A stretch of DNA of 64,000 bases from the NCBI RefSeq assembly GCF_009932555.1, contig NZ_BLJO01000008.1:182644-246643 (forward strand), in the 5' to 3' direction. Source of the DNA: Steroidobacter agaridevorans (GTDB lineage Bacteria > Pseudomonadota > Gammaproteobacteria > Steroidobacterales > Steroidobacteraceae). Below, piece by piece: positions 3,870 to 31,103 of this stretch. The position numbers and the translations under genes were made by a program. Under the pieces are notes generated by a model, which saw nothing but the letters and a program-made list of their open reading frames with translations, was not told where the DNA came from and made no database searches. Position 1 is the stretch's first letter, and the number at the start of each line of letters is the position of its first letter.

Positions 3870-3986
3870 TGCAAATTCTCCTGTTGTGGAACCGCTAACG
3901 TTACTGAGCTTGCGGCACCCGAGGCAACAGCGCTGCGGTGGGAGGCCGCCGTCACGCGTCGGCGCGTGACGGCGTTTAGGTGTCGT

Positions 3987-6101
3987 TCAGTTCTTCAGCC
4001 AGCGCGCCAGCCAGCGGTCGACTTCGTTGAAGAACTGCCGGCTGTTCTCGCCTTGCAGGATCCAGTGATTCTCCTCCGGGAAGATCAGCAGGCGGCTCTC
4101 GACCCGCTGCCGCTGCAGCACGCTCCAATACTCGAGCGTGTTGTTCATCGGCACCCGGAAATCGCGCTCGCCGACCGTCACCAGCACCGGCGTCTTCCAC
4201 TGGGCCGCATAACGGATGGGATTTTGTTTGTTCCAATCCACGCCCTGCTGCCACGGCGGACCGCCCATGTTCCGCTCGCGCGGATAGGCGATGTCGCTGG
4301 TCGCCCACTGGCTTTCCAGATTGATCAAACCGGCATGGCTGATCAGGCAGCGATAGCGAGTGGTGCTTGCCTGCATCCAGTTCGCCAGGTGGCCCCCGTA
4401 GCTCGCGCCGCCAGCGCATTGGCGCGTGCCGTCGATGAATGAATAGCGTGCGATCGCTTCATCCGCGGCTTGATTGATCTCGAGTGCCGGGCCTTCCAGA
4501 GGATCGCCTTGAATGGCCTGCGAGAACGCGGCGCCGAAACCGGTGGAGCCGGTGTAGTTGGTGAGCAGCACGACGTAACCGGGCGCGGCGAGCAAGTGAA
4601 AGTTCCAGCGCAGGAAGAACGTATCGCGCCACATGGTGTGCGGGCCGCCGTGCATCAGGACCAGCAACGGATATTTCTTCGCGGGATCGAAACCGGGCGG
4701 GCGGACGATCATGTTGTGGATGCGCGCGCCGCGCTTGCTGTCGAACCAGAAATGTTCGACGGGCGCCAGATCGAGCTGCGCCATCTTGTCCGCAGTGAAG
4801 CGCGTCAGTGCCTGATGATTGCCACGTTGCAGATCGATGCGCACGACTTCCGATGGGCTGACGGCGCTGTCGAAATTCGCAATCAACACCGGTGAGCCGG
4901 AGCGATCCGCGCCCACGAGATTGCCATATCCGCCGGCCTTCATGTCGAACGCGAGCGCCGCTTCGCCGCCGCTGCTCTTGCCGCGATAGATCTTCGAATG
5001 TCCCGCGTCTTCGGCGAGCAGATAAATGTCGCGGCTGTTGGGCGCGACCACGAAGTTCAGCGCGTCACGCTCGGCCGGCAATGTGACATCGGTGCGGGGG
5101 TTCAGTGACGGCCAATCGAAGGACGACAGATGCGTCGGGCCGAATACCGTCTTGCCACGCACTTCTCGAAGTGCATAAAGAGTGCGGCCGTCAGGACTGA
5201 ACTCGGGTTCGCTCCAGCCATCGCCGCCCTTCAGTTCATCGCTGCCCGTCAGCCGTTTCGGCTCGCCGCCGCTGACCGCGACTTGCCACAGCTCGGTGTT
5301 GGTGAAATCGAAAGCGCCGCGGTTGGCGTTGCGGGAGGCGGCGAAGATCAGGCCTTCTCCATCGGGCGTCCACAGCAAATCCAGCTCGCTCGCGCCTTGC
5401 GTGCTGCGGCCATCGAAGCCCGGCTGCTTGATCATTTCGCTGCCGGCGAACAGATCGCGCGCGTCGTTTGCGCCGATCGTTTGCACGATGGCGTGCGGCT
5501 CGCGATTCTCCGGCAGCCACGTATCCCAATTGCGAATCGGGAAGCCCTCGTAGGCGCGTACCTTATATTTGCGCGCCTTCTCTTCCGCGACGATGCGCTT
5601 GCTGTCCTCGTCGTTGCGGCTTTCCGGCGGCACGTCGCTGGTGAATGCGATCCTGCGGCCGTCCGGCGAGAACTTCGGCAGGCGCGCGCCGGTGCTGATC
5701 GTGGTTGCTCGCAGCGCTTCGCCGCCGCCTGCGATGTCCAGGATATAAATTTGATTGACTTCGTCGCCATCGCGCTTCGAAGCGAAGGCAACGCGTTTGC
5801 TGTCCGAGCTCCACGTCATGCCTGATTCCGTTGCGCGCGTTTGTGTCAGCCGGCGCGGCGGGCTCTTGCCGTCCGTGGCCATCAGCCATAGGTCGCTCAC
5901 CTGTTGATCGTTGGCATACGCCGGCTCGGTCACGCTGAACACTGCCAGCTTGCCGTCGGGGCTGACAGCCGGAGCGCCGACTCGCGGCGACAGCCACACA
6001 TCTTCGTGTGTGATCGCCCGGCGCTCGGCGGCTTGCAGCGAGGTGCTCGCCAGGCCAATCACTGTCAATGCAATCGCTCGTGCTACGAAGCAAGTACTCA
6101 C
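3987..6101 (-). CDS. Secreted S9 prolyl-oligopeptidase family peptidase
   Basis: The 704-residue protein has an N-terminal signal peptide (VARAIALTVIGLASTSLQAAE). About 400 residues of TolB/WD-like propeller repeats follow, marked by recurring SPDG and SSDS turns. The C-terminal alpha/beta-hydrolase domain has the nucleophile in GGASYGG near residue 565, the Asp in VGERDFRVP near 647 and the His in ENHWIL near 677. It would cleave short peptides in the periplasm (dipeptidyl or acylaminoacyl type). It is divergent from the FecI gene and may be unrelated to the lasso locus, although that locus contains another S9 member. Confidence 0.88.
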   Translation of the reverse strand: MSTCFVARAIALTVIGLASTSLQAAERRAITHEDVWLSPRVGAPAVSPDGKLAVFSVTEPAYANDQQVSDLWLMATDGKSPPRRLTQTRATESGMTWSSDSKRVAFASKRDGDEVNQIYILDIAGGGEALRATTISTGARLPKFSPDGRRIAFTSDVPPESRNDEDSKRIVAEEKARKYKVRAYEGFPIRNWDTWLPENREPHAIVQTIGANDARDLFAGSEMIKQPGFDGRSTQGASELDLLWTPDGEGLIFAASRNANRGAFDFTNTELWQVAVSGGEPKRLTGSDELKGGDGWSEPEFSPDGRTLYALREVRGKTVFGPTHLSSFDWPSLNPRTDVTLPAERDALNFVVAPNSRDIYLLAEDAGHSKIYRGKSSGGEAALAFDMKAGGYGNLVGADRSGSPVLIANFDSAVSPSEVVRIDLQRGNHQALTRFTADKMAQLDLAPVEHFWFDSKRGARIHNMIVRPPGFDPAKKYPLLVLMHGGPHTMWRDTFFLRWNFHLLAAPGYVVLLTNYTGSTGFGAAFSQAIQGDPLEGPALEINQAADEAIARYSFIDGTRQCAGGASYGGHLANWMQASTTRYRCLISHAGLINLESQWATSDIAYPRERNMGGPPWQQGVDWNKQNPIRYAAQWKTPVLVTVGERDFRVPMNNTLEYWSVLQRQRVESRLLIFPEENHWILQGENSRQFFNEVDRWLARWLKN

Positions 6102-6338
6102 TAGCAGCAGCTCCTTATCGGTTCGGGCACATACCGTGCGGTAGTTTCAGCTGCCGATTATTACCGAATCGATGCTGCAGGTGCGCGGGCATTTGTTTAT
6201 TCCGGCAGTAACCAGGCTCGGAAAGACTCCGTTGTCACGCGCCGGTCGAATCGAGCAATATGCCGCGCGTTTCACGGTTCAGCGGGAACCAGCAGGGATG
6301 CCGGTAGCGACATTGGTTGCTCAAAGACGAGGCTTCAT

Positions 6339-6821
6339 ATGGATGTGCTCTTGAGGCAGCTGCGTGGCCTGAAGAAATTATTGCGCCGGCGGGGCGCCAC
6401 GCCGGAACAGGCGGAAGACCTGGTGCAGGAAGCGGTGCTGAGGCTGCACGCGTATACCCGCCAGGGCGGCCAGGTCCAGAACCAGGAAGCCTTCCTGACC
6501 CGGACCGCGATCAATCTGTCGGTCGATCAACATCGGCACGCCCGGCTCGACTGTTACGAGGCCGATCCCATCGAAGATCTCGAGCTGCCCGATCTCGAGC
6601 CCACCCCGGATGAGGTTTTTGCCGCTGAGCAACGTCTGATGAGGATGCGGGATGCGCTCGATCGCGCCAATCCCAGGACACGGGAAGTTTTCTTCATGCA
6701 TCGTCTCTACGGCTTCAGTCACGCTGAGATCGCGCGCCGCTTGCGGATCAGCGTCAGCGCCGTGGAGAAGCATGTTGCGAGCGCCGTCACGATTCTCGCC
6801 ATCGAACGACAACGGGAATGA
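6339..6821 (+). CDS. FecI-type ECF sigma factor of the lasso locus
   Basis: The 160-residue protein has a sigma region 2 (AEDLVQEAVLRLHAY) and a C-terminal region 4 helix-turn-helix (FFMHRLYGFSHAEIARRLRISVSAVEKHV). The GACGAGG ribosome binding site precedes the ATG. Its stop overlaps the start of the FecR-like gene by 4 bp, and an STN-domain TonB receptor follows. This is the classic cell-surface signalling triad: receptor occupancy is relayed through FecR to release the sigma factor. Here the operon ends with a lasso isopeptidase, so the likely signal is the lasso peptide itself. Confidence 0.9.
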   Translation: MDVLLRQLRGLKKLLRRRGATPEQAEDLVQEAVLRLHAYTRQGGQVQNQEAFLTRTAINLSVDQHRHARLDCYEADPIEDLELPDLEPTPDEVFAAEQRLMRMRDALDRANPRTREVFFMHRLYGFSHAEIARRLRISVSAVEKHVASAVTILAIERQRE

Positions 6822-7864
6822 GCCCTACGGAAGCATCAACCAGCGAGCCTGTGCCGCCGGAGCGACTCGCCGAAGCCAGCGTGTGGATCGCGAAGCTGCA
6901 CGGTGACGCTCGGGGCCGCGCCGTCGAAGATGGCCTGCGCCGCTGGCTGCACGCGCATCCTGAGAATGCGCGCGCGTTCGAACTGGCCACCGAAGTCTGG
7001 GAAGAATCGGAGAAGCTGCGCAGCGTCGTGCCCTTTCGCCCGCTGACTCACGTCGAGCATCGGCCGCGTCGGGGTGGAGCATTACTGGTCGCGTTCGCCT
7101 GCATGCTGACGCTGGCCGTCGTCGGAATCGTTTGGTTTCAATACGTGGGTGTCGTCGCCACTGCGGTCGGGGAGCAGCGCCAGTTGGTACTCGAGGACGG
7201 CACTCGCGTATTTTTAAATACGGACACGCGCATCGTCGTGAAATACGACGACACGGCGCGTCGGGTCGAGCTGCGTCGGGGCGAAGCGTTGTTCAACGTG
7301 GCCAAGCGCAGCGACTGGCCTTTCATCGTGGTCGCGGGCGATCGGCAGGTGAAGGCGCTCGGCACTTCATTCGTCGTGCGCAAGGATGCCGAGCGGCTCG
7401 CGGTGACGCTGGTGGAAGGCAGCGTGCTGGTGACGCCGGTGCTGCCGTCACTGCCCGAGCAGGTCCAGCCAACGATCGATGCGCCTGGCGCGATCGAGCA
7501 AACACCTGCGACGACTGCCGAAGCTGGCGGCGGCCAGTTCAAGCTTGCGGCCGGCCAACGGCTCACGTTCAGCGGCGGTGCGGCAACCAAGCTCGATACC
7601 CCTTCCATCGACAAGACGACGGCATGGCGCCGCGGCCAGGTCATATTGGATGACACGCCGCTGCAAACTGCCGTCGCCGAAATGAACAGATATAACGAAA
7701 CCAAACTGATCGTGACCGATCCGGAGGCCGCCGCGATTCCCATCAATGGTTTATTCCAGGCGGGCGACTCCACGCACTTCGCCAACGCTGTCGCACAAGC
7801 TTATGGTCTGACAGTCACCGCGCGCGGCGATGAAATAATTCTGTCTGGCAAACCCGTTCAGTGA
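6818..7864 (+). CDS. FecR-family anti-sigma / sigma regulator
   Basis: The 348-residue inner-membrane protein has a cytoplasmic DUF4880-like segment (about residues 15-65, with RAVEDGLRRWLHAHPENARAFE). One transmembrane helix follows at about 88-112. The periplasmic FecR domain comes next (GEQRQLVLEDGTRVFLNTDTRIVVKY; LRRGEALFNVA; VKALGTSFVV), then a C-terminal STN-like part ending near residue 345. It would receive the signal from the receptor's N-terminal domain and control the FecI protein, with which it is translationally coupled. Confidence 0.9.
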   Translation: MSPTEASTSEPVPPERLAEASVWIAKLHGDARGRAVEDGLRRWLHAHPENARAFELATEVWEESEKLRSVVPFRPLTHVEHRPRRGGALLVAFACMLTLAVVGIVWFQYVGVVATAVGEQRQLVLEDGTRVFLNTDTRIVVKYDDTARRVELRRGEALFNVAKRSDWPFIVVAGDRQVKALGTSFVVRKDAERLAVTLVEGSVLVTPVLPSLPEQVQPTIDAPGAIEQTPATTAEAGGGQFKLAAGQRLTFSGGAATKLDTPSIDKTTAWRRGQVILDDTPLQTAVAEMNRYNETKLIVTDPEAAAIPINGLFQAGDSTHFANAVAQAYGLTVTARGDEIILSGKPVQ

Positions 7865-7963
7865 GGATTTCCATCGGCTGCAACGTCGAACTAACGATGT
7901 GTCAAAAATCCTGACGTTTGCTCAGGACCTGGGGATTGGGGATTCATCGGTTAGGAGATCACT

Positions 7964-10693
7964 TTGAGCATGAACAATAGGATGTTTCATAGCAGCGCTC
8001 GCCACGCGCCCCGCGCCGCGACGCTGACAGGGAGTGTGCTGGCCATTCTCGCTACCGCAGGCAACGCTCAAGCAATGACTGAATGGGATCTTCCCGAGCA
8101 GCCGTTGGCGAAATCGTTGCGGGAGATCGCCGCTCAGACTGACAGCAACATCATTTTCGACAGGAAGCTGGTCAACGACCAGTCGGCGCCGCCGCTGAAG
8201 ATGAAGGCCACGACCGAGCAGGCATTGAAACAAGTGCTGGAAGGCACCGGCCTGACTTATCGCCATCTCGACGACAAGACCGTCACGATTCAGCTGGCGA
8301 GCACGGATCCTTCGATAACCACCAGCGCCAGCTATGGCGCCGATGGACGCATTCGCCTGGCTCAGGCACAAACCGGCGAGGGCGCCGGTCCGCGGACGCG
8401 TATTGTCGACGGCAAGCCGCTGCTCGATATCGAAGAGATCATCGTCACCGGCACCAACATCCGCGGCATCGAGAACAGCACGGCGCCTGTGATCGTGCTG
8501 TCCAGGGAGTACATCAATTCCACTGGCTTCAGCACCACGACCAAGCTGATCGAATCGCTGCCGCAGAACTTTGCGCTCGCGAATCAGAGCGGGCTGCAGG
8601 CGAACGGTACGGGGCAAGTCAGCAGCGTCTCGGAACAGGGTTCGTCCATCAACCTTCGCGGCATCGGCGAAGGCACCACGCTGGTGTTGTTGAACGGCCG
8701 TCGATTGGCGCCCGGCTTCAGATCCGCTGCCGCCGATATCTCTTCGCTGCCGTTGACCGCGATCGAGCGGGTCGAGATCCTGACCGACGGTGCTTCGGCG
8801 ATCTACGGTTCCGACGCGGTGGGCGGCGTCGTGAACTTCATTCTCAGAGAAGACTTCGAAGGCGCGGAAACCCGGCTGCGCGCCGGCGCCGCCGACGGCA
8901 CCGATGAGTACCGTGTGAGTCAGGCGCTGGGCAACTCCTGGGATTCGGGCAACGTCCTGCTGTCCCTGGAGTATTACAAGCGGGACGAGTTGCTCGCGAG
9001 CGATCGTGACTACATTCCCGCCAATGTCGTCGCTCCAGGGCTGTTGCCGGAAGACGAGAATTACTCGGCCGTGTTCACCGGTGAGCAGCAGCTCTCCGGA
9101 TCGATCAGCGCATTTGCCGACGTGCTCTTCTCGCAGCGCGATAGTTTCAATCGGGCAGGGCGCGTTTCGCCCCTGTTCAACGAAACGCCCAACGACGTGG
9201 ACAATCCCCAGCTCAACGCGACGCTGGGGATGAACTTCGGGCTGGGTGGGGACTGGCAGCTCGAAGTGTCCGGCTCGTATGGCAGCAACGAACTCGAAGT
9301 GGTACGGGGAGGGGGCGCCGTGGCAGTGAGTTCGTTCGATTCGAAGTTCGAGAGCGAGGCGGCCAGAATCAAGGCGGACGGTACGGTGCTCGGCTTGCCA
9401 GGCGGCAACCTGCGTATGGCCATCGGCGCCGACTATCGTTCGGAGACTTATGAGGACCTCACCACGGTCGCAGGTGGCATCGTCACCAACAGCACCGACA
9501 CGGATCAGGATGTCAGTTCGGCGTTCGCCGAACTTTACATCCCGCTGGTCGGCAGTCCCAATGCGGTGGCCGGGGTGAACGCCCTGGAAGTGTCGCTGGC
9601 TGGACGCTACGACGACTATTCGACCTTCGGTTCTTCCTTCGACCCGCAGTACGGCTTGATGTGGGAGCCGGTCGGCGGGTTGCGCCTGCGCGCGAGGTAC
9701 GGCACCTCGTACAAGGCGCCGAATCTGGTCGAAAACACCTTCGGCACCAATTCCGCCGCGGCAATTCTGGCGCAGGACCCGCTGTCGCCGTTCGGCTTCA
9801 GTTACCAGCTGCAGGTTGTCGGCATCGACGTGGATGCCTTGCAAGCGCAGGAGTCGACCAGTTCCTCGTTCGGCCTGGAGTTCACTCCGGAAGCGATCAA
9901 GGGGCTGGCCGTGAATCTCAACTACTACCAGATCAAGTATCGCAACCGGATCACCAATCCGCCGTTGCCTACGGTATTGCTCGGCGATCCGGCCTCCTTC
10001 GGCAGCCTGTTCATTCGCAATCCGACGGTCGATCAGGTCAATCAGTTCATCGCCATCGCGCAGCGCGGCCAGCTGGGCTTCATCCCGCTCAGCCCGATCG
10101 ACTTCACCTTCGATCCGAATTTCGACCCGGCGTCGATCGAGGTCATCGTGGACACCAGGCGACGCAACCTGAGCCTGGTGGAAACCAACGGCGTGGACTT
10201 CTCCACGCGCTACGATTTCGCCGTCGGCTCGTCCAATGTCGCCCTCGGCATCGACGCGACCTACGTGCTGCAGATCGAGCAGCAGATCACCACTACCAGC
10301 GCGCCATTCGAAACGGACGATACATTCGGCAATGCGCCGAATTTGCGCATGCGCGCGATGGCCAGCTGGCAGCGCGGCGGCTGGAGCGCGAATACGTTCG
10401 TGAACTACACCGATTCATATACGGACAATCGATTGATCACCACCCCGGTGTCGGTCGACGCCTATACGACGGTCGATGCGCGCGTGGCCTATTCCTTCCC
10501 GACGGGGTCGAGCAGCGGTTTCCTGTCGGGAGTGACGGTGGGCGCCAGCGTGCTGAACCTGTTGGATGAGGATCCGCCGGGCACGCAGGTTCTGTCCGCT
10601 CCGGGCGCGCCGAGTTTCGACCTGGGCTTCGATCCTGCCAACGCGAGTGCGCTGGGCCGGTTCATCTCGCTGGAGTTCACCAAGACGTGGTAA
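7964..10693 (+). CDS. STN-domain TonB-dependent receptor, likely lasso peptide transducer
   Basis: The roughly 909-residue outer-membrane protein has a signal peptide ending near GNAQA. An STN signalling domain follows (about 40-112: LPEQPLAKSLREIAAQTDSNIIFD), then a Ton box (IEEIIVTGTNI, about 162), a plug and a beta barrel ending in an aromatic C-terminal strand (FTKTW). AGGAG at 7953 is spaced well for a TTG start at 7964; an ATG at 7970 is the alternative. Receptors with this layout sit beside FecI/FecR and an isopeptidase in known lasso loci and are thought to re-import the peptide. That role here is inferred from context. Confidence 0.88.
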   Translation: MSMNNRMFHSSARHAPRAATLTGSVLAILATAGNAQAMTEWDLPEQPLAKSLREIAAQTDSNIIFDRKLVNDQSAPPLKMKATTEQALKQVLEGTGLTYRHLDDKTVTIQLASTDPSITTSASYGADGRIRLAQAQTGEGAGPRTRIVDGKPLLDIEEIIVTGTNIRGIENSTAPVIVLSREYINSTGFSTTTKLIESLPQNFALANQSGLQANGTGQVSSVSEQGSSINLRGIGEGTTLVLLNGRRLAPGFRSAAADISSLPLTAIERVEILTDGASAIYGSDAVGGVVNFILREDFEGAETRLRAGAADGTDEYRVSQALGNSWDSGNVLLSLEYYKRDELLASDRDYIPANVVAPGLLPEDENYSAVFTGEQQLSGSISAFADVLFSQRDSFNRAGRVSPLFNETPNDVDNPQLNATLGMNFGLGGDWQLEVSGSYGSNELEVVRGGGAVAVSSFDSKFESEAARIKADGTVLGLPGGNLRMAIGADYRSETYEDLTTVAGGIVTNSTDTDQDVSSAFAELYIPLVGSPNAVAGVNALEVSLAGRYDDYSTFGSSFDPQYGLMWEPVGGLRLRARYGTSYKAPNLVENTFGTNSAAAILAQDPLSPFGFSYQLQVVGIDVDALQAQESTSSSFGLEFTPEAIKGLAVNLNYYQIKYRNRITNPPLPTVLLGDPASFGSLFIRNPTVDQVNQFIAIAQRGQLGFIPLSPIDFTFDPNFDPASIEVIVDTRRRNLSLVETNGVDFSTRYDFAVGSSNVALGIDATYVLQIEQQITTTSAPFETDDTFGNAPNLRMRAMASWQRGGWSANTFVNYTDSYTDNRLITTPVSVDAYTTVDARVAYSFPTGSSSGFLSGVTVGASVLNLLDEDPPGTQVLSAPGAPSFDLGFDPANASALGRFISLEFTKTW

Positions 10694-12903
10694 CTGGTTC
10701 TGGTTGGTTGCTTGCCATGTCGCTGTCGCTCCAGGCCGTCGCAATGACGGCCTGGAGCCAGTCCTCAAACCACCAAGGCGCGTCGCTGACCATCCCGCAG
10801 GTCGCGCAGGGCCCGAAGCGGCTCATCACGACGGATGATCTCATCGCGTTGCGCGACATCGATTCCTTCAGCCTGTCGCCCGACGGAAAAAAATTCGCGG
10901 TGCTGATACGGCAGGCGGATCCGGTCGCGAACGGCTATCGCACCGGATGGTTCATCGGTTCGACCGACGATGGCGCGCTCACGTCCGCAGGTGATGGCGG
11001 CGAAGCGCGGCTCATGAGAATCATGACCGGCCGATGCGGAGGGGACCTTGTCGGCTCCAGCAGCCGCTGGTCGGCGGACGGCCAGTGGATCGCCTATACC
11101 GTGCAGCGTAATGGCGAGATACAGCTCTGGCGCAGCAGCGTGGACGGCAAGATTCAACAGCAGCTCACTCACAACGAAGCCGACGTGCGCGATTTCGCCT
11201 GGAGCGAGGACGGGCGCACCCTGTTCTTTACCGTCGGCAGCACTCGCTCAGCACAGCGCGCTCGCGAGGAGAAAGGTGGTCGCGATGGGTTCCCGCTGCA
11301 AGAGTTTCAGTGGTTCACCGAAATGGTTTATCGGGCGACGCCAGTGGGACCTATCGAGACGGATCTGACCGTCTGGGCCGTCGCCAGCGACGGCCGCGAC
11401 GAACGTCCGGCGGATGCCGCCGGGAGGAAACAATTCGAAGAGGGCCTGCGGCGCGGGTATTCCTGGGGACGCGACTACTCGCAAACGATGAAGGTGGAGG
11501 ACTTTGGCGGCTCGGGGGCGCCGCCGGTGGTCGGCAAGAATGGCGTTCGGGCCTCGCTGGTCCGCGTCGACCCTTCGGAGCGCGGTTTCTTGCCGAAGCT
11601 GCGTTTGACGGCCTCGTTGCGGCCGGACGGTTCGCAGCCGATCGCGTGTAACGCGGAAGAGTGTGTCGCGCAGATCTTTTCCAAAGTCTGGTGGAGCCCC
11701 GACGGCAAGCAGGTCATTTTCTGGCGCGAAGAGGGCATCAATTTCAGCGACCAGGGAATCTATTCCTGGACCCCCGCGAGCGGCGTTGTGAAGCCGTTGA
11801 AGCGCGCCTCGGGGGATCGCTTCAAGGAATGCGAGCTGCTGGGTCAGCGCCTGATCTGCGTGCATGAAACGCGACTTCAACCGGCACACATCGTCAGCAT
11901 CGACACTCGTTCCGGCCGCACTTCGGTGCTGGCCGATTTCAATCCCGAGTTCAAGAACCTGCGCCTGCCCAAGGTCGAGCGCTTCGAGTGGGATGCACCA
12001 CCCGACACTGTGCGACTGGGCTATTCGAAGCGGGCTTACGGTTACATCGTGTATCCGCCGGACTTCGATCCCAATAAAAAATATCCCGTGCTGATCGCTC
12101 CTTATGGGGCGCAGGGTTTCATCCGCGGGGACGTGGGCGACGAGCAGCCGATGCTGGTCTATGCGGCCAACGGCTTCGTCGTTCTCGACACAGCTTTTCT
12201 GTTGCCCTTGGGCGATATGGGGGCCGCCGACGGGGGCACCCTGTACGAGAAGATGTTTTCTGCCGAGCATGGGTTTCCCCACATGACCATGCTCATGGAA
12301 TCGACGATGCGTGGCTTGGACGCGGCTGTCGCGCGCGGCTGGGTCGATGAGACTCGCGTGGGCATGGGGGGATTGAGTCAGGGAGCGATGGCGTCTCTGT
12401 ATGCGCTACAGAAGCTTGATCGTTTGTCGGCGGTGTCGGTGAGCGGGCCGAGTTTGTCGCAGATCGATGTATATCTCGAGACGAGTTACGGCGCCGAGAT
12501 TGCAAAGCGAATTGGCGGTGGCGTGAAGCGGCCTGAAGCCGCCGAGTACTGGGCGCAGATCGATCTTGCCGACCACATGGATTCGATCGAGGCGCCGATC
12601 CTGATGCACATCGCCGATCGGGAGGCAATTGGGATCATGCGCCTGCAATACCGGCTCAGCGATGCACGGAAGCCTTACGAAGCATTCATCTTTCAGGACG
12701 AATATCACCAGAAGTGGCAGCCCGCGCACCGCTACGCAATCTACAACCGCAATCTCGACTGGTATCGGTTCTGGCTGCAGGACTACGAAGATCCGAGCGC
12801 GGAGAAGGCCGACCAGTATCGACGCTGGCGAGCGCTACGCGAGCTGCAGTGTCTCAATCCGCGCGCGCTCCGGGCCTATTGCGCTGACAACGATAAAGAG
12901 TGA
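10687..12903 (+). CDS. Lasso peptide isopeptidase (S9 family, AtxE-type)
   Basis: The product has about 738 residues, with an N-terminal signal-like segment, a propeller and an alpha/beta-hydrolase domain. The nucleophile is in GLSQG near residue 563, the Asp in HIADREA near 641 and the His in QDEYHQKWQPAHR near 674. The C-terminal pattern DEYH..KWQPAHR..IYNRNLDWYRFWLQ is typical of AtxE-like isopeptidases, which cut the macrolactam and linearise the lasso peptide. The GTG at 10687 overlaps the receptor's end by 7 bp; an ATG at 10717 is the alternative. It converges on the cyclase gene with 28 bp overlap. Confidence 0.88.
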   Translation: MVTGSGWLLAMSLSLQAVAMTAWSQSSNHQGASLTIPQVAQGPKRLITTDDLIALRDIDSFSLSPDGKKFAVLIRQADPVANGYRTGWFIGSTDDGALTSAGDGGEARLMRIMTGRCGGDLVGSSSRWSADGQWIAYTVQRNGEIQLWRSSVDGKIQQQLTHNEADVRDFAWSEDGRTLFFTVGSTRSAQRAREEKGGRDGFPLQEFQWFTEMVYRATPVGPIETDLTVWAVASDGRDERPADAAGRKQFEEGLRRGYSWGRDYSQTMKVEDFGGSGAPPVVGKNGVRASLVRVDPSERGFLPKLRLTASLRPDGSQPIACNAEECVAQIFSKVWWSPDGKQVIFWREEGINFSDQGIYSWTPASGVVKPLKRASGDRFKECELLGQRLICVHETRLQPAHIVSIDTRSGRTSVLADFNPEFKNLRLPKVERFEWDAPPDTVRLGYSKRAYGYIVYPPDFDPNKKYPVLIAPYGAQGFIRGDVGDEQPMLVYAANGFVVLDTAFLLPLGDMGAADGGTLYEKMFSAEHGFPHMTMLMESTMRGLDAAVARGWVDETRVGMGGLSQGAMASLYALQKLDRLSAVSVSGPSLSQIDVYLETSYGAEIAKRIGGGVKRPEAAEYWAQIDLADHMDSIEAPILMHIADREAIGIMRLQYRLSDARKPYEAFIFQDEYHQKWQPAHRYAIYNRNLDWYRFWLQDYEDPSAEKADQYRRWRALRELQCLNPRALRAYCADNDKE

Positions 12904-14807
12904 GCTGCGACGGCGGTCTGCACGGTTCCGGCCCATTTCTGTAACCAGGCTTCCGCCGTCAGATAAGACAACAGGATGGGGGCAGGGACCGTGAGCGAAG
13001 GCTCCGGCGCGGCGAGGCATGCATCGAGCCGGCCACGGTCCAGATAGCCCTGTTCGACCAGCAGGCCATCGAGCAGCCGCTCGCGAAGCAACGTTCTATT
13101 GCGCTTGACGATTTGCTGATAGAAGGAACTGCCCGATCCCTTGACCTGGCGTTTGCGGATCTCGGCAGGCAGCAGATCGGCGAAAGCGCGCCGTGCCAGC
13201 CCGCGGCTGATGCCCCCGGCGAGCACGGTGGTGGTCGGAATCCGCAACATCGTCTCCCACACGGGCTGGGAGTTCAGCGGATCGATATGGTCCGTGCTTC
13301 TGCCGCTGTCGAAAACGAAATCGTACCAGGCCGACCAGGTCAGGCCTTTGGCGTGATCTTTCTTGCCCGGCGGCAACGAGGAGCGCGAGATTCGTTTCGA
13401 CAGCTCGCTTTCGAAGTCCTGATTGCTCAGGCCCGCGGTGAGCTCGGCGTTCACCAATGTGGGTAGATTCAAAATCGCGAAAGGACTGAGATAGGGACGA
13501 CGCAGCAAGCCGTGGCGCACGGTCTTGCCCAGCACGGACCAGACCGAGTCCTTGCTGAGCCGCGAGGTCGCCAGGATCTGTTCCCAGAGGCCGGACCTGA
13601 AGCCGTGCAGATACGCCTGATCCATGGCGGGCAAGGGCTGCACCGTGGCTTGAAAAATCGAGTCGCCCGCCTGCCCCGAAAAGAACGCCTGGGTATCGCG
13701 GCTCCCGATGAGGTCGAGCAGGATGTCCTCCTGCTCCATCACCGTGAAATACAGGTTGGGACTCACCGTCGGCGCGGTATCCCAAAGCCGCGTCAAGTCC
13801 ATGACGAGCGCTCGCTGCCGTTCGATCAGCTCGGTTCGCCATCGTTCGGCCACCAGGCGCGCGAAGTATCTTTCGTCTCCGCTGCCGACGATCGCGCGAA
13901 TCTTGTCCGCGGTCCGCCGGTCGACGCCGGCAATCGCCACCTGCTCGTGGCCCGAATCGATGTCGATACAAACGTTCAGATAACTGATCCGTGCCGCTGA
14001 CGGCACGTGCGCGAGACATCCAGCGATGATGGAAGAGTCGAGTCCGCCAGAAAGCCGCAGCGTGATGTTCTCGTAGCACGAGGCCCATGCATTGACAGTG
14101 TCCTGTACCGTTGCACGCAACGCGCTTGCGGCTGCATCCAACTGCTCGAGATCTGCGGCGCTCGCGATCGCGATCGGATCCCACAACACGGAGCGCGTCA
14201 TGCGTCCCTGGGAGAATGTGAGGCGATCTCCGGCCGGTACGGGCGCCACGCCTTCGAGGCCGGTCGCTTCGAAGGTCAGATTGCCGAACATCAGCCAACG
14301 AGCGAGATACTGACGATCGACTGAGTAGCGAAGTGGCAGCAGACGAGCGCAATCTTCGATGTGAGAAAAGAAGATCTCGACGCCTTTGAACCGCATGTGA
14401 TAGCTGGGCATGTTGCCAAGCGGATCGCGGAACACGTGATACCTGGCCGCGGTCACGTCATGAACGATGGCGAAGTAGGTGCCCCAGTAGCGATCGACCA
14501 GTTGCTGGCCGCCGCTATCGATGATTTCGCTTGCCGCCGCGCCATCGAGAACGATCTGGCGCATGCTCGTGTAGTCGCCATGATGACGGTCGAATATTCT
14601 GCCGAGCACCACGCCGCCACCGTGCGGCAACGGGTACGCTCCGGCCGCGTCGCGCCGCATTCCAGTGTGCATCACGAACATGCCGGATGCGTCGCAGGCG
14701 GTGACCCACGCAGCGGGTTTGGTGCTGCTACTCAGGCCGAACGATTGAAATGTCCGCACGCTCTCGAGATTGAGCGGATCCCAGAGCAGGGCGAGATAGC
14801 GCTGCAT
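12876..14807 (-). CDS. Lasso peptide cyclase (asparagine synthetase-like, C protein)
   Basis: The 643-residue protein has a glutaminase-like N-terminal domain (about 1-190) that begins MQRYL and lacks the Cys2 nucleophile of true asparagine synthetase. The synthetase domain carries the ATP-pyrophosphatase motif SGGLDSS near residue 256. Lasso C proteins use ATP to activate the ring acid and form the macrolactam. The gene lies 34 bp downstream of the B gene, behind an AAGGAC ribosome binding site, on the same strand as the precursor. Length and order match proteobacterial lasso cyclases. The 3' end overlaps the convergent isopeptidase gene. Confidence 0.92.
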   Translation of the reverse strand: MQRYLALLWDPLNLESVRTFQSFGLSSSTKPAAWVTACDASGMFVMHTGMRRDAAGAYPLPHGGGVVLGRIFDRHHGDYTSMRQIVLDGAAASEIIDSGGQQLVDRYWGTYFAIVHDVTAARYHVFRDPLGNMPSYHMRFKGVEIFFSHIEDCARLLPLRYSVDRQYLARWLMFGNLTFEATGLEGVAPVPAGDRLTFSQGRMTRSVLWDPIAIASAADLEQLDAAASALRATVQDTVNAWASCYENITLRLSGGLDSSIIAGCLAHVPSAARISYLNVCIDIDSGHEQVAIAGVDRRTADKIRAIVGSGDERYFARLVAERWRTELIERQRALVMDLTRLWDTAPTVSPNLYFTVMEQEDILLDLIGSRDTQAFFSGQAGDSIFQATVQPLPAMDQAYLHGFRSGLWEQILATSRLSKDSVWSVLGKTVRHGLLRRPYLSPFAILNLPTLVNAELTAGLSNQDFESELSKRISRSSLPPGKKDHAKGLTWSAWYDFVFDSGRSTDHIDPLNSQPVWETMLRIPTTTVLAGGISRGLARRAFADLLPAEIRKRQVKGSGSSFYQQIVKRNRTLLRERLLDGLLVEQGYLDRGRLDACLAAPEPSLTVPAPILLSYLTAEAWLQKWAGTVQTAVAAHSLSLSAQ

Positions 14808-14841
14808 GGCCGTGTCCTTGGCTGATGCTCCGTGCCTGGCT

Positions 14842-15531
14842 TCAGACCGTCATGATGGGCGTGAAGCCGGCCGCCGTTTCCACGTCTTCGTTGAAAATGA
14901 ATTGCCCCTGCTGCACCCAGCAGTGCGCGTTCCAGGGTTCGAGCCGGACCGCGAACATCCAGGTGGGAAAAATCCGGTAGCGGGCGAGAAATTCGAGCAG
15001 GGCGAGCGAGTCGAAGAGGCAGAGATAATCGCGCGGGAACAAAGTTCTGAGCGTCTGAAACACCGCGGTCAGCTCGCGCGCCGCGTCGATGTCGAACGTA
15101 CCGTTCGAGTTGTAACGGGCTTTGCGCAGCTCCACGGCTTTGACCGTGTGCTCGATCCGCTGCCAGCGAAGTCGTGCCGCCGCGGTAGTGCACGCGGCGA
15201 TGAACTTATAGAAATGCGAGACGCGCAGCCGTACTCGTGGCACGGACTCGGGATCGATCAAGGGTTCCATCGCTACTTCCGCCTGTGTCGGGCGGATGCT
15301 CTTGCCCTGTCTCGGATCGGTGACCAGCAGCCCACCCGCCAGCAGTTCCTGCAAGGCATCCGCGGCTTCCGGCCTCGACTCGTCCAGTCGGCCGCTTGGA
15401 GCGAGCGCCCGGAGGGCCGCCGCGGTCGCTCCGTTGATGAGCATGTAGTCGTCCTGCTTCAGGTCCAGAAACACCAGGTCATCGCCGCGGCTGCAAAAGT
15501 GGACGTGCGGCGGAAGGAAGTATTCGGCCAT
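14842..15531 (-). CDS. Lasso peptide B protein (RRE plus leader peptidase)
   Basis: The product has 229 residues, beginning MAEYFLPPHVHFCSRGDDLVFLD. Residues 1 to about 80 form a PqqD-like RiPP recognition element (DDYMLINGATAAALRAL). The C-terminal part is the transglutaminase-like B2 peptidase, with Cys in YLCLFDSLALLEFL near 170, His in NAHCWVQQG near 202 and an acidic NEDVE near 212. It would bind the leader and cut it off to free the core's first glycine. The ATG at 15531 was chosen because the RRE begins there; an upstream in-frame ATG at 15672 would overlap the precursor gene. Confidence 0.9.
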   Translation of the reverse strand: MAEYFLPPHVHFCSRGDDLVFLDLKQDDYMLINGATAAALRALAPSGRLDESRPEAADALQELLAGGLLVTDPRQGKSIRPTQAEVAMEPLIDPESVPRVRLRVSHFYKFIAACTTAAARLRWQRIEHTVKAVELRKARYNSNGTFDIDAARELTAVFQTLRTLFPRDYLCLFDSLALLEFLARYRIFPTWMFAVRLEPWNAHCWVQQGQFIFNEDVETAAGFTPIMTV

Positions 15532-15564
15532 GATCAACCTGCGTGAGAATGCCACCCTCTGAGC

Positions 15565-15603
15565 AAGAGGCGCGCTGCTCTCGAGCAGCGCGCCCCACCT
15601 CTT
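15565..15603 (-). promoter_or_regulatory. Strong hairpin between lasso precursor and B gene
   Basis: Arms 15569-15579 (GGCGCGCTGCT) and 15584-15594 (AGCAGCGCGCC) pair perfectly around a 4-nt loop. An outer AAGAGG/CCTCTT pairing (15565-15570 with 15598-15603) extends the stem across a bulge. It lies in the precursor-to-B spacer, with no long T-run after it on the minus strand. In other lasso operons such spacer hairpins favour precursor mRNA over enzyme mRNA; the same role is inferred here. Confidence 0.65.
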
Positions 15604-15605
15604 TG

Positions 15606-15618
15606 TTGGCAGTGCCAA
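15606..15618 (-). other. Small perfect hairpin after the lasso precursor stop codon
   Basis: TTGGCA and TGCCAA flank a single base, forming a 6-bp inverted repeat eight bases past the precursor's TAA. Together with the larger hairpin downstream it makes a two-stem 3' region that may protect the short precursor transcript. Confidence 0.4.
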
Positions 15619-15625
15619 CTGAGGT

Positions 15626-15718
15626 TTACACCGGATAGATAGGCATGCCGGTCGATTCCGAGGCAACGACAACCTTCACGCCCTTGGTTTCTTTAGACAC
15701 TTTTCCCAGCTTGATCAT
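15626..15718 (-). CDS. Lasso peptide precursor (A)
   Basis: The 30-codon gene encodes a 12-residue leader, MIKLGKVSKETK, followed by a predicted 18-residue core, GVKVVVASESTGMPIYPV. The leader has the conserved Thr two residues before the cleavage site, and LGKVSKETKG fits the proteobacterial lasso pattern. The core starts with Gly, and Glu is at position 9, allowing a nine-residue Gly1-Glu9 macrolactam and a tail STGMPIYPV. An AAAGGAG ribosome binding site lies 7 nt before the ATG. Position directly upstream of the B and C genes supports the call. The leader is unusually short; bulky tail residues Met13, Ile15 or Tyr16 could act as plugs. Confidence 0.9.
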   Translation of the reverse strand: MIKLGKVSKETKGVKVVVASESTGMPIYPV

Positions 15719-16151
15719 GTTGCTACTCCTTTGCTTGCTCGCCACCCGTCATGTGATGGCGCGCAGAGGATGTTTGCAAAAGTCATCCGGCTACAAGCCC
15801 CCCGGCGCAGCTCGTGAGGTTGTCCGGGCGGAATATACGAACCGTTGGACACGTATCGCGTTCGAGTGTCGGAGCGTATTGCAGCGGGATGTATGCACGT
15901 GTGCATCGGTGCGCTGCCAAGGTCAAAAGTCTGACAGCACGTCTGGTTGCGACGTTCACCGCGACGAAATTTCACGTTGCCTTTGAGGGTTGACCTATCG
16001 CGTCCGGACTGGCTCCGTGCACCGGGGGTGCTTCGCGCTCCACTGCGGCGGGTGACAGTCTTTGATTATTTGCATTCACTCGCTCGCGTTTACCGCCGGC
16101 CCGGTCTGTGCTACCAATGATTGGCTCTGATGCATCGACAAGGAGCGATCG
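15719..16151. promoter_or_regulatory. Divergent promoter region between lasso precursor and IucA/IucC-like gene
   Basis: This 433-bp stretch has no convincing gene. It must hold the leftward promoter of the lasso operon and the rightward promoter of the next gene. A dyad ATGCAC-GT-GTGCAT at 15893-15906 is a candidate operator. AGGAG at 16141 is the ribosome binding site of the rightward gene. I could not assign a convincing -35/-10 pair for a FecI-type sigma factor by eye. Confidence 0.45.
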
Positions 16152-17468
16152 ATGTCAGCCCAGCCCATCGACGATCAGGACGTCATCGGTCAGTTGCCGG
16201 CGGGTTTGCAGCAATGGCTGGCGCTGGAACGCTTTCATCTGCACAAGGTGGATCTGTTCCAGAACAGGTCCCGCGATCCCGCCTTCGATCCGCGCTACCT
16301 GCCCCAGAATTGCGGCGCTTTCAGGTTGCCCTGCTTCTGGGTCCGTCGGAAGTATTTGCAGATCTATGGCCGGCAGGCGGCGAACGGCGGCGAATTGCAA
16401 CTGTTCTCCGGCCATGGGTTGGACGAGCGCGTGCTGTTGCCAATTCATCCCTCGTCATTGGATCACTACAGAAAGTTCCTGTCGGACGTGGATGCCGTGG
16501 AGGCGTCGAAGCAAGGCGTGTGCATCTGGGCCGTGCCGACTTCGAGCACCAGAACGCTGTTGGCATGGCAGGATCGAGCGCCCGGCACCGCGCTGTTCGT
16601 CAAGACCTCGCTGCAGTCCCCGATGTTCGGGGACCGACGCTTGTATCTGAGGACAGTCGGCCGCAGCGTGGGCTTCTCCGGGCTCATGCAAAGTGCACGA
16701 GCGGACCTTCCGGCCACGTTGGACTATCTGTCGGAGTCGGTGGGTTTTGTGCCGCGCTCGCTGCCGGACAGCGGAGCCATCGTTCGCTCGATACCCGAAG
16801 AGATCAAGCAGGGCCGGATCCTGGTCGCACCGTTGTTTTCATTGCTGGGGGGCGATGGCGGTCACGTGCCACTCTTGCTGACTCTGCTCGAACGCAGCGG
16901 CATGCCGCCACGGCAACTGGTGGAAGAGATGCTCTGCGCTCCATTCGCCCGGTTGTGGTTGGACATGAGCATGCGTCTGGGTTTGGTGCTGGAGGCTCAT
17001 GCTCAGGATCTCATGCTGATGCTGGCCCCGGACCTGACTCCGCTGGGCCGCTTTCTTTATAGAGATTTCGAGGGGCTGCAGGTGGATTGGGAGTTGCGGC
17101 GGCGGCGTGGACTGCGGTCGCCGGCTGACATGCCGCACGCCTGGTCCTGGCGCGAGACCTACAACACCTGGGGTTATCCTTTCAGCGAATTCGTCTGGTA
17201 CAAGTGGCGGATCAGCCTGTTCAACTATCTCTATTTCATCCTCGCCGACGTAGAGACGTCACTGCGCGAGTGGCGCGAACGCGGGCTGATCGACGACTGG
17301 CAGTGTGAGCCGGACGAGGTGACCCTGATCTTCTCCCGTCACCTGTTCGAGGCGCTGGAGGAGATGTTCGGCATTCGAGTAAAAACGGAATACAACGTTT
17401 ATCGACACCTCAACCGATTCTTGATGCTGCTGCTGGATGTGCGGAAAGAATTGCTCGGCATGAAATAA
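16152..17468 (+). CDS. IucA/IucC-like (NIS synthetase-related) protein
   Basis: The 438-residue protein carries landmarks of NRPS-independent siderophore synthetases: an HPSS segment near 98, PTSSTRTLLAW near 129-139 with the adenylate-binding Ser-Arg-Thr, and FVKTSLQ. It also has LVLEAHAQD and LYRDFEG (about 278-305), which match the family's LE.H.QN...RD signature. It is some 150 residues shorter than usual and lacks the N-terminal HPxHPxxK region. NIS enzymes join carboxylates to amines or alcohols using ATP. It is divergent from the lasso precursor, so a role in that locus or a small siderophore route are both possible. AGGAG supports the start. Confidence 0.62.
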   Translation: MSAQPIDDQDVIGQLPAGLQQWLALERFHLHKVDLFQNRSRDPAFDPRYLPQNCGAFRLPCFWVRRKYLQIYGRQAANGGELQLFSGHGLDERVLLPIHPSSLDHYRKFLSDVDAVEASKQGVCIWAVPTSSTRTLLAWQDRAPGTALFVKTSLQSPMFGDRRLYLRTVGRSVGFSGLMQSARADLPATLDYLSESVGFVPRSLPDSGAIVRSIPEEIKQGRILVAPLFSLLGGDGGHVPLLLTLLERSGMPPRQLVEEMLCAPFARLWLDMSMRLGLVLEAHAQDLMLMLAPDLTPLGRFLYRDFEGLQVDWELRRRRGLRSPADMPHAWSWRETYNTWGYPFSEFVWYKWRISLFNYLYFILADVETSLREWRERGLIDDWQCEPDEVTLIFSRHLFEALEEMFGIRVKTEYNVYRHLNRFLMLLLDVRKELLGMK

Positions 17469-17624
17469 CGGCTGCTGTGCTAGCACGAAAGATGTGACGT
17501 TTGCTTGAGGTTTTTGCTGAGCTGCCACGTCTGAATAAGAGATTGCCCGGCGCGAGCCCGGAGCGCGCGCACGACTCGGAGTCTCGATTCAGCCCATATA
17601 GTGGTAAGTAGCAAGGTCCGGCCA

Positions 17625-18101
17625 ATGAGCACGGCAGACGCCATTCATCCCACGCCTGTTTCCATGCCCGGCCTGGCCGCCCGAGTCTTGGCAAGCCTGT
17701 CCTCGTCCACTCGGGAGGAGCTTTGCGAGCACGCCGCGGACTGCTCGTCCCGGCTGCGCGCTACGTTGGAAACCCTGTTCGTGAACCGCTTTGGCGGTCA
17801 CCACGAGGGGTTCGAGCGGCTGCGGTTTCTGTTCTTCGTGGCGCCGCTGGTGCGCCGGCTGGTGATCGGCTCGGCCAATCTGAACCATCGGGTGCGCGGC
17901 ACCGACGTGACCTTCGCGGACGTGAAAGCGTGGCTCGCCTGGCTGGACGCCATGGATCCGCTCTGTGCCCGGATGATCGATCTGCGCTACTTCGCCGGCG
18001 TCAGCATCAAGGAAACGGCCCGCTTGCTGGATCTGCGCCCCGACGCGGTGGTGCGCGAGCTGCGCTTTGCCCGGGCGTGGCTGAACATCAAGGTCTCCTG
18101 A
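17625..18101 (+). CDS. ECF-type sigma factor (Sigma70_ECF family)
   Basis: The 158-residue protein has a degenerate sigma-2 half and a clear region 4 (CARMIDLRYFAGVSIKETARLLDLRPDAVVRELRFARAWL). This pattern is typical of the ECF subgroup often listed with stand-alone, anti-sigma-less members. AAGG upstream of the ATG at 17625 favours it over the in-frame GTG at 17601. It follows the IucA/IucC-like gene by 156 bp on the same strand. No FecR-like partner is adjacent. Its regulon is unknown. Confidence 0.75.
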   Translation: MSTADAIHPTPVSMPGLAARVLASLSSSTREELCEHAADCSSRLRATLETLFVNRFGGHHEGFERLRFLFFVAPLVRRLVIGSANLNHRVRGTDVTFADVKAWLAWLDAMDPLCARMIDLRYFAGVSIKETARLLDLRPDAVVRELRFARAWLNIKVS

Positions 18102-18178
18102 TCGTAACGACCGGTCTTGTAATCCTTCCGCCCAGGGCCATCTAATCCGGCTCTATATCGTGACCGCTGCATTCCCGG

Positions 18179-19345
18179 GTGCATGCGGCTGGAGCGGATT
18201 CCTTGCGACGCGGTTTCTCGATGATGCTGGGCCTGCTCGGCCTGTTGCATGTCTACATTGGCGTGCGGCTATTGCCGGCGCTGTCTCTCGGTGTGCTGGG
18301 CCAGGTCATCGGTGGGCTGCTGCTGGTGGCCTCCTGGATCCTGATTCCGATGGGCCTGACGGCGCGCTCGAGGCAGACGAATAGCGATGGCGCGGATGGC
18401 CTGGTATGGACCGCGCTCATCGCGATGGGGCTGTTCTCGTCGTTGTTCGTGTTCACCCTGTTGCGGGATTTAGCTTTGCTGGTCGCGGTGTTGTTCACGC
18501 AAGCGGCGGCTACCGCACGAGTGCAAACCACGTCCGCATGGATTGTCGTTAGCGCCGCGGCGCTTGCCACGCTGATTGGATTTATCAACGCTCGCCGCGT
18601 TGCGCGTGTCGTTCACGTCGATGTGCCCATCGCCAATCTGCCGCCGGCATTGCGTGGGTTCTCGATTGCGCAGATCAGTGACATTCACGTTGGGCCGACG
18701 ATCCGTCGCAACTACGTCGAGGGTATCGTCGCGGCCGTGAATCGACTCGACGCCGATGCGATCGCCACCACCGGCGATCTGGTCGATGGCAGCGTGCGGG
18801 AGCTGGCCTCGCATGTAGAACCGTTGGCGCAACTGCGCGCCAGATACGGAACATTCTTTGTCACTGGCAATCACGAGTACTACTCCGGTGAGCGCGCGTG
18901 GACGAGGGAGCTGAGTCGCCTGGGAATGCGGGTGCTCATGAACGAACATGTGGTCGTCGATCACAACGACGCGAGGCTGGTGATCGCGGGCGTGACGGAT
19001 TTCAGTGCGCATCACTTCGATCCCGTGAATCGTAGCGATCCAGCGGCGGCGCTCGCCGATGCGCCAGCGGATGTTGGAGCAAAGATATTGCTTGCGCATC
19101 AGCCACGTTCGGCGCCGCAAGCCGCGGCGGCCGGCTTCGATTTGCAGCTTTCCGGGCACACGCACGGCGGGCAGTTCTGGCCCTGGAACTTCTTCGTTCG
19201 CTTCCAGCAGCCGTTCACCGCGGGATTGGATCGGCTCGACTCGCTGTGGGTCTACACGAGCCGAGGCACAGGCTACTGGGGGCCGCCGAAACGTTTCGGC
19301 GCGCCGTCGGAGATTACGCGCATAAGGCTGATCGGCGCGAGCTAG
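18179..19345 (+). CDS. Membrane-anchored metallophosphoesterase (YkuE-like)
   Basis: The N-terminal part of this roughly 388-residue protein has about four transmembrane helices (from MMLGLLGLLHVYIGVRLLP to about residue 135). The calcineurin-like phosphoesterase domain follows, with the metal-ligand motifs ISDIHVG (about 164), TTGDLVDG (about 196), TGNHEYY (about 227), LLAHQP (about 303) and SGHTHGGQFWP (about 320). It probably hydrolyses a phosphate ester at the membrane surface, as in lipid or UDP-sugar phosphodiesterases. Start is GTG 18179 or ATG 18221. The structured repeat lies just downstream. Confidence 0.83.
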   Translation: MHAAGADSLRRGFSMMLGLLGLLHVYIGVRLLPALSLGVLGQVIGGLLLVASWILIPMGLTARSRQTNSDGADGLVWTALIAMGLFSSLFVFTLLRDLALLVAVLFTQAAATARVQTTSAWIVVSAAALATLIGFINARRVARVVHVDVPIANLPPALRGFSIAQISDIHVGPTIRRNYVEGIVAAVNRLDADAIATTGDLVDGSVRELASHVEPLAQLRARYGTFFVTGNHEYYSGERAWTRELSRLGMRVLMNEHVVVDHNDARLVIAGVTDFSAHHFDPVNRSDPAAALADAPADVGAKILLAHQPRSAPQAAAAGFDLQLSGHTHGGQFWPWNFFVRFQQPFTAGLDRLDSLWVYTSRGTGYWGPPKRFGAPSEITRIRLIGAS

Positions 19346-19346
19346 G

Positions 19347-19456
19347 ACCGCCCCGGGTACATGGATGTACCCCGCCGCCAGCGGCGGCGGCGATCGGCAA
19401 AAGTCGCGCCTTTTGCCGACTCGCACGAGGGTCGTGGCAGGATGCCCGATCCCTCG
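19347..19456 (+). repeat. Structured intergenic repeat, copy 1
   Basis: About 110 bp between convergent genes, ending 1 bp from the LacI-gene stop. It folds into four hairpins: GGGTACAT-GG-ATGTACCC (19355-19372), GCCGCC-AGC-GGCGGC (19374-19388), TCGGCAAAA-N8-TTTTGCCGA (19394-19419), and an outer GAGGG/CCCTC stem enclosing GGCA-GGA-TGCC (about 19427-19455). A second copy at 44834-44946 has the same order and compensating base changes. Family unknown to me; it could be a REP-like element or a structured 3' RNA. Confidence 0.75.
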
Positions 19457-20483: not shown

Positions 20484-20544
20484 CAGGCCCCCTAGGTCAG
20501 GGGCAGCATCGTACCGCTTCAGCCGCGGTCCTGCAGATAGTGGC

Positions 20545-23521: not shown

Positions 23522-23710
23522 CGGAATATTACCAATGCAATACCAATAGCCGAGTGGTTATGCCTGTGTGAACCTCTAAACCGCTGTATTTTCATTGAAA
23601 AACTCTATTAAAAACTAATGGTACTAACTAGGCTTGGCTTTTTGCTCAGACTGGTACTATATTGGACCCATATTGGTCCGATTCAAAACACAACCAAGGG
23701 GTAGGGAGCG
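23522..23710. promoter_or_regulatory. Divergent nag promoter region with dyad and TTGGT-type repeats
   Basis: A dyad ATTGGACC-CATATT-GGTCCGAT lies at 23661-23682, with one mismatch between arms. The octamer TGGTACTA occurs at 23619-23626 and 23652-23659, spaced 33 bp, about three helical turns. Near the gntR start the minus strand reads ATTGGT-ATTGC-ATTGGT (about 23527-23545). These are candidate sites for the GntR or LacI regulator controlling both directions. An AGGGAG ribosome binding site precedes the receptor ATG. Confidence 0.55.
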
Positions 23711-26305: not shown

Positions 26306-26311
26306 CCCACC

Positions 26312-26350
26312 GATCATGGGCCGCGGATTGAAACATCCGCGGCCCTGATC
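26312..26350 (+). other. Large intercistronic hairpin between receptor and hexosaminidase
   Basis: GGGCCGCGGAT (26318-26328) and ATCCGCGGCCC (26335-26345) pair perfectly around the loop TGAAAC. GATCA/TGATC extends the stem past a single bulged base. There is no T-run downstream. Such hairpins often stabilise the upstream mRNA or partly terminate transcription, which would give more receptor than downstream enzymes. Confidence 0.6.
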
Positions 26351-31078: not shown

Positions 31079-31103
31079 CAGAGCTTCCGCAGGGGGTGAG
31101 GTG

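Follow-up and report, generated by a model that had tools for sequence, protein, structure and literature searches.

Lasso peptide clusters of the isopeptidase class, represented in the Pseudomonadota by those for astexin, benenodin and sphingopyxin, have gene sets that resemble siderophore systems, and the isopeptidase has been proposed to release a bound cargo (PMC9266682, in the portions drawn on here, as throughout for the publications cited). Two further lasso peptides bear on the present case. Metanodin, published in 2025, is a Steroidobacteraceae lasso from a soil metagenome that was made in E. coli (PMC12670498), and albusnodin, whose Streptomyces cluster includes an acetyltransferase gene, carries an acetylated and conserved Lys10 (PMC9266682). 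Here we describe a lasso locus in a 64,000-nucleotide stretch of the Steroidobacter agaridevorans genome (positions 182,644 to 246,643 of contig NZ_BLJO01000008.1; hereafter the window), together with an adjoining gene at 16152-17468 on the plus strand, which encodes a compact enzyme resembling IucA, IucC and other synthetases of nonribosomal peptide synthetase-independent siderophores (NIS).

Like the astexin, benenodin and sphingopyxin clusters (AtxE2, PDB 5txc), the window locus comprises a precursor (A), a B protein with RRE and peptidase parts, a cyclase (C), an isopeptidase, a TonB-dependent receptor and a sigma/anti-sigma pair, with no ATP-binding cassette (ABC) exporter seen. It departs from that class in the adjoining NIS-synthetase-like gene and in an invariant core lysine, Lys3; the portions of PMC9266682 used here name no such enzyme for the class, and the GntR-like regulator that they place before the precursor was not found in the open reading frames (ORFs) scanned. 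With metanodin it shares the bacterial family, a cluster containing an isopeptidase, and a threonine at position -2, and metanodin (Asn1) illustrates that the first residue need not be Gly; the core is nevertheless different, and the main text on metanodin is without IucA or siderophores (PMC12670498). Albusnodin likewise combines a conserved core lysine with a cluster-borne gene for an acyl-transferring enzyme, and it serves as a precedent for the proposed acylation of Lys3, although the enzyme here is an NIS-type ligase rather than an acetyltransferase and the lysine occupies a different core position (PMC9266682). The enzyme resembles AcsD, IucA, IucC, AsbB and DesD in fold and in the motifs S-x-R-T, K, H-x-Q and R-D-x-x-G, with a Glu before the His as in AcsD, and is unlike them in its length (438 aa, where the matched chains have about 540-600 residues), its missing N-terminal part, its low identity (14-20% in Foldseek alignments) and its location beside a lasso precursor. 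Among the matches listed from the open-licence literature, no title or abstract start connects a lasso peptide with a tailoring enzyme of the IucA/IucC type, and PMC12668002, in the part used, mentions lasso peptides only in a reference. The lasso locus as such is a new member of a class already known, and its distinguishing feature is the adjoining IucA/IucC-like gene.

Linkage of the IucA/IucC-like gene to lasso precursors with an invariant Lys3

The IucA-like gene was found in 10 genomes overall. It occurs in 8 of the 200 family genomes, and scans by genus gave 4 of 14 for the own genus and 6 of 58 for a second one (g18). A lasso precursor lies beside it on the opposite strand in all eight loci whose contig reaches upstream (the contigs of G133 and G416 start inside the gene and were left out of this count), the divergent spacing being 408-476 bases in the seven loci measured, and B and C follow the precursor in seven of the eight, the contig of the eighth (G412) ending first. 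Comparison of these predicted genes shows the link between gene and peptide, and the IucA-like gene is very probably a functional part of the lasso locus. The initial annotation had placed a complete locus at 6339-15718, and it is virtually certain that this stretch is a lasso locus with the full isopeptidase-class gene set; its end was drawn too early, however, as the neighbouring gene at 16152-17468 belongs to it.

Close isopeptidases (E 1e-100) occur in four of the 200 family genomes, all of which have the IucA-like gene. The neighbouring peptidases in g18 match the lasso isopeptidase model over the C-terminal half only (140-146 bits against a cut-off of 400, for four proteins in three loci), and the search found none of the own-genus outer neighbours next to the g18 loci. 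The own-genus genome G129 lacks the block altogether, a Dpp5-like peptidase and a calcineurin-like phosphoesterase lying 136 bases apart there by match ranges; in G044 and G135, which are Iuc-less and have both flanking genes, these are on different contigs. A wider contig scan for the enzyme gave seven loci, three from Peristeroidobacter/Steroidobacter species and four from metagenome-assembled genomes (Proteobacteria or Gammaproteobacteria), and an order scan at E 1e-8 gave 5 of 296, including a distant relative from a different family. The class scan (1 of 369) and the phylum scan (1 of 398) each returned the own genome, where the IucA-like profile has one match only, at the window. Two distant Methylocystis records came from a plasmid scan. 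These Methylocystis plasmids (L137 9893-11119, L138 8893-10116) encode compact IucA/IucC-family proteins of 407-408 aa; their genes lie between DUF1259 and major facilitator superfamily genes, with a gene for chromate efflux adjacent, and away from any obvious siderophore locus. A distant IucA-like gene (L130 9467-10714; 25% identity, no Pfam match) is found amid glycosyltransferase and polysaccharide-export genes in G328, which belongs to a different family of the order.

The eight Iuc-linked cores begin GVKVVVASE, GVKVVIVGE, DTKFLTDPE, TGKDSIFTE, GVKLVGSPE, SGKIGPLAE, STKSGTIPE and NAKISFTPE, and the only positions invariant across all of them are Lys3 and Glu9; the remaining core positions have 12.9% identity between the two genera, compared with 8.1% in shuffled cores. 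Lys3 is present in all eight precursors with an IucA-like gene and in 2 of 32 without one (Fisher 5.9e-7). The control set consisted of the 63 Iuc-less B matches that exceed the NF033537 cut-off in the 200 family genomes (70 less the 7 Iuc loci), and two motif rules accepted precursors in 32 of these 63 loci and none in the other 31, where comparison of short ORFs by blast likewise yielded no convincing shared candidate. Spurious motif matches in L081 (plus strand), L096 and L102, and the second one in L108, were dropped. We also rejected two other interpretations of the cores, namely a side-chain ring between Lys3 and Glu9 that replaces the usual ring, and the novelty of the unusual first residues (D, T, S, N): in both cases the T at -2 puts residue 1 in its normal place, and elsewhere in the family, too, lassos begin with a residue other than Gly (metanodin Asn1, PMC12670498).

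The window precursor is predicted to divide into leader and core as MIKLGKVSKETK|GVKVVVASESTGMPIYPV, with Gly1 and Glu9 in the core and Thr11 of the leader at -2. Seven relatives carry a similar precursor of 30-31 aa beside the IucA-like gene, which argues that this small ORF is more than chance. It matches the Subterisin (0.0021) and benenodin (0.0058) models below threshold, and such sub-threshold matches alone to lasso precursor models are consistent with the view of the initial annotation that the product appears to be unlisted. The predicted product masses are 1813.965 Da for an unmodified lasso and 1987.981 Da for a citrylated one.

In a tree of cyclases the seven Iuc-bearing members form one side of one branch among 59 sequences (SH-aLRT 99), with long inner branches. 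The tree comprises these seven, including that of L028, and 52 of the 63 control loci; nine loci with no cyclase match, L088 (cut by a contig end) and L112 (split frames) were left out, and the contig of G412 is without a cyclase. Because the Iuc-bearing cyclases form a single clade, they point to one origin kept over long divergence and not to repeated gain. Between the window and G115, its closest congener at the lasso locus, dN/dS (the ratio of nonsynonymous to synonymous substitution rates) is 0.17 for the IucA-like gene, with values of 0.20 and 0.59 for cyclase and precursor respectively, and on these estimates the IucA-like gene is under purifying selection. The genome of the window contains a second lasso locus (G000:C9:403975-404331, L123; core candidate QYGTYPIMFDSIYLLGERHP), whose cyclase falls together in the tree with those of G115, G106, G074 and G129 loci.

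The enzyme, its proposed role and competing explanations

A family profile of the enzyme matches IucA (5jm7, E 4.7e-04) and IucC (6cn7, E 7.1e-04) in the PDB. An AlphaFold2 (AF2) model built from eight rows (pLDDT 79.7, pTM 0.82) was compared with known structures by Foldseek, and NIS-synthetase chains make up all of the best 50 of 56 PDB matches at E <= 0.001 with probability 1.00, the best being IucC 6cn7 (E 3.8e-14); in a viral structure library the single match at E <= 0.001 was to a protein kinase, which we take as fold-level background. Ser132-x-Arg134-Thr135, Lys151, Arg162, Glu281, His283 and Arg304-Asp305 are invariant in the eight rows. In the alignment with AcsD, Glu281 falls on E442 and His283 on H444, and Arg162 is probably the counterpart of AcsD R305. 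The model thus has the NIS fold, and the ATP/donor-site and general-base residues are present by alignment with IucA and, weakly, with AcsD. In AcsD, E442 is the proposed general base and recognises the acceptor amino group, the donor is a small free carboxylate, and amides are formed from diamines (PMC3323832). The enzyme is here described as NIS-like and is not classed as a siderophore synthetase.

We propose that the window encodes an isopeptidase-class lasso cluster with an added tailoring enzyme, in which the NIS-like enzyme acylates Lys3, most likely with citrate, and the lasso is imported through the STN-type TonB receptor; for the proposal as a whole we judge the chances to be about even. 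B would cut off the leader after Lys12, and the cyclase would close the ring between Glu9 and the amine of residue 1. The IucA/IucC-like enzyme would activate a small polycarboxylate, with citrate the likeliest, as its acyl-adenylate and then acylate the side-chain amine of the ring residue Lys3, either before threading or afterwards, giving a lasso that bears a hydroxy-carboxylate metal ligand. Uptake of the modified lasso through the receptor would signal via FecR and FecI and raise expression of the receptor-isopeptidase genes, and the isopeptidase would then open the ring and release or reset the cargo. The parts of this proposal differ in strength. We infer both the site, Lys3, and the donor, citrate; that the enzyme modifies Lys3 is the probable reading of the comparative data, and citrate is a tentative choice of donor, somewhat short of an even chance, which leads because AcsD uses citrate and because the locus carries FecI, FecR and STN-receptor genes. 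Succinate or another acid is possible. That the product is a metallophore, with citrate on the invariant ring lysine of a lasso that is imported through the signalling receptor and opened by the isopeptidase, is more doubtful still; a siderophore-like lasso would fit the FecI, FecR and TonB-receptor genes of the locus.

If the metallophore interpretation is true, it would give isopeptidase-class lasso peptides a concrete function. As a siderophore-type ligase sits in the cluster beside a core with an invariant lysine, the siderophore-like idea becomes directly testable. If true, NIS ligation would also join the modifications of ribosomal peptides and offer a means of attaching a metal ligand to a highly stable scaffold.

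Several observations weigh against the proposal. The enzyme falls under the Pfam gathering scores of both IucA_IucC (6.9e-05, 23.0 of 25 bits) and FhuF (0.0026, 18.7 of 25.2 bits) and matches no NCBIfam family; its relatives in L023, L025 and L027 are over the FhuF gathering score (26.8-32.3 bits), and none is over that of IucA_IucC. The Foldseek superpositions are loose (template modelling score by query 0.45-0.63), about 120 N-terminal residues of IucA are missing (query 46 corresponds to IucA 166), the AcsD alignment has an E of 0.11, and IucA carries Leu at the AcsD E442 position in the same profile alignments. A PF04183 scan of the own genome gave no match at E 1, which speaks for the proposal, but it missed the window gene too, so that its negative is weak for divergent copies. 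As compact relatives occur in a Methylocystis chromate cluster and, in G328, at a polysaccharide-type locus, proteins of this kind need not make siderophores. The remaining points concern the lysine, and they favour the alternative that Lys3 is needed by the clade's own cyclase, receptor or isopeptidase while the IucA-like enzyme modifies another site or helps, which we consider unlikely. Because the Iuc-bearing cyclases are one clade, the link may have a single origin, as may Lys3, and the Fisher value overstates independence. Lys3 is also kept in G186 (L028, ~9900-11700), where the IucA-like gene is decayed by stops and frameshifts, and it occurs, with Glu8 as the ring acid, in a near-identical Iuc-less pair, L085 (G080; GLKADAIESNGEVGVQHP) and L103 (G111; GLKADTIESNGEVGVQQR). 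This is, however, the only such pair among the 32 Iuc-less precursors, and lasso enzymes in general thus do not need Lys3; acylation of a lysine amine would, moreover, suit an NIS-type ligase.

A separate small citrate-amine siderophore, made by the IucA-like enzyme and imported by the receptor with the lasso produced alongside and unmodified, would agree with the action of the NIS synthetases described in PMC3323832 and PMC7857480 on small amines or alcohols, and with a receptor that has an STN domain and a weak match to the FecA model NF041676 (32 bits of a cut-off of 1100, at its N-terminus). Yet the scan of ten ORFs across 3987-18101 matched no hydroxylase, acetyltransferase or exporter family, every testable locus has the gene next to its precursor, and the invariance of Lys3 would be left unexplained; we regard this explanation as quite unlikely. 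That the gene is a hitch-hiker with no role in the lasso pathway seems very unlikely: in favour of this, it is encoded on the opposite strand and reads away from the precursor, but it is kept in two genera whose other searched neighbours differ, has the low dN/dS given above, is gone together with the block in G129, and adjoins a lasso precursor in all eight copies that allow the comparison. An adenylating ligase, an invariant lysine and a free C-terminus in every core could also suggest a second intramolecular amide, from Lys3 to a tail carboxylate, and hence a doubly closed lasso; no second acid is conserved among the eight cores, however, and the AcsD donor is a small free carboxylate (PMC3323832), and we hold this to be highly improbable.

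Features of the locus and its surroundings

The coordinates of the features are given in Table 1. As the initial annotation described, FecI, FecR, STN-TonB receptor and AtxE-like isopeptidase genes on the plus strand converge on precursor, B and cyclase genes on the minus strand, all of them found by Pfam and NCBIfam profiles and by checking of the ORFs. Its assignment to the isopeptidase class without an ABC exporter is likewise supported by the profiles, the AtxE2 structure match and a gene content as in PMC9266682 (FecI, FecR and TonB receptor), and no ABC-transporter signature LSGGQ/E is present in the six frames of 3901-19400. The cell may, as that annotation inferred, sense or recapture its peptide through the receptor and linearise it with the isopeptidase.

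Table 1. Coordinates and supporting matches of features in the window
Feature	Position	Strand	Matches and remarks
FecI-like extracytoplasmic function (ECF) sigma factor	6339..6821	+	Pfam Sigma70_r2 7.5e-10, r4_2 3.2e-13
FecR-like anti-sigma/sensor	6818..7864	+	Pfam FecR 5.3e-21, DUF4880
TonB-dependent receptor with N-terminal STN signalling domain	7964..10693	+	Pfam STN 1.8e-08, Plug 9.7e-18, barrel 5.1e-39
AtxE2-type lasso peptide isopeptidase	10687..12903	+	NF033523 lasso_peptidase 509 bits, cut-off 400
C, asparagine-synthetase-like lasso cyclase	12876..14807	-	Pfam Asn_synthase 6.2e-19; SGGLDS motif
B, RRE and transglutaminase-like leader peptidase	14842..15531	-	NF033537 lasso_biosyn_B2 58.9 bits, cut-off 33; Transglut_core3 4.7e-17
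A, precursor, 30 aa	15626..15718	-	predicted leader 15718-15683, predicted core 15682-15629
Precursor Lys3 codon	15676-15674	-	
Precursor Glu9 codon	15658-15656	-	
Divergent intergenic region, 433 bases	15719..16151		between precursor and NIS-like gene, whose starts are 434 bases apart
Compact NIS siderophore-synthetase-like enzyme, proposed Lys3 acyltransferase	16152..17468	+	divergent from precursor
ECF-sigma-like protein, chiefly region 4	17601..18101	+	inside block missing from G129

The isopeptidase matches AtxE2 (5txc) with an E of 3e-78, and Ser564 (in GLSQG), Asp644 and one late His are aligned with AtxE2; among the motifs it has GLSQG for GLSDG and DREA for DEEY, with KWQPAHR common to both. 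The cyclase is below the cut-offs of the NCBIfam lasso cyclase models (84.8 of 300 and 56.6 of 525 bits) and is encoded next to A and B. The description of B as an RRE joined to a peptidase stands for the peptidase part, which is recognised by NF033537 and Transglut_core3 and in which Cys171 and His203 are invariant in six rows; the RRE half has a weak sequence match only (0.043) and is seen through its predicted fold, the AF2 model resembling TbiB1 (5v1v, 5v1u) and 6jx3 with Foldseek probabilities of 0.93-1.00 (1.00 for TbiB1) and a best E of 4.4e-3, none reaching E 0.001. The FecI-like sigma factor has 88-100% identity in three congeners, and the listed start of the receptor is TTG, with an ATG six bases downstream.

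Within the intergenic region, an alignment of the window with three congeners shows partial conservation of a block, GGTGACAGTCTTTGATTATT, at 16051-16070, and no second copy was found in the window with three mismatches allowed; it is a possible candidate for a promoter element. The sigma-like protein at 17601-18101, which has no match in the g18 loci, is possibly an extra regulator. On the other side the cluster adjoins a Dpp5-like S9 peptidase (3987-6101, minus strand), which matches the lasso isopeptidase model in part (107 bits, cut-off 400); it looks like a host gene, since G129, which lacks the cluster, has it too. Further to the right, 19458-35254 contains a LacI-type regulator, an amidohydrolase, a SIS domain, two TonB receptors, GH20, a phosphotransferase system (PTS) EIIA-HPr-EI fusion and EIIBC, and looks like a locus for the utilisation of amino sugars derived from chitin.

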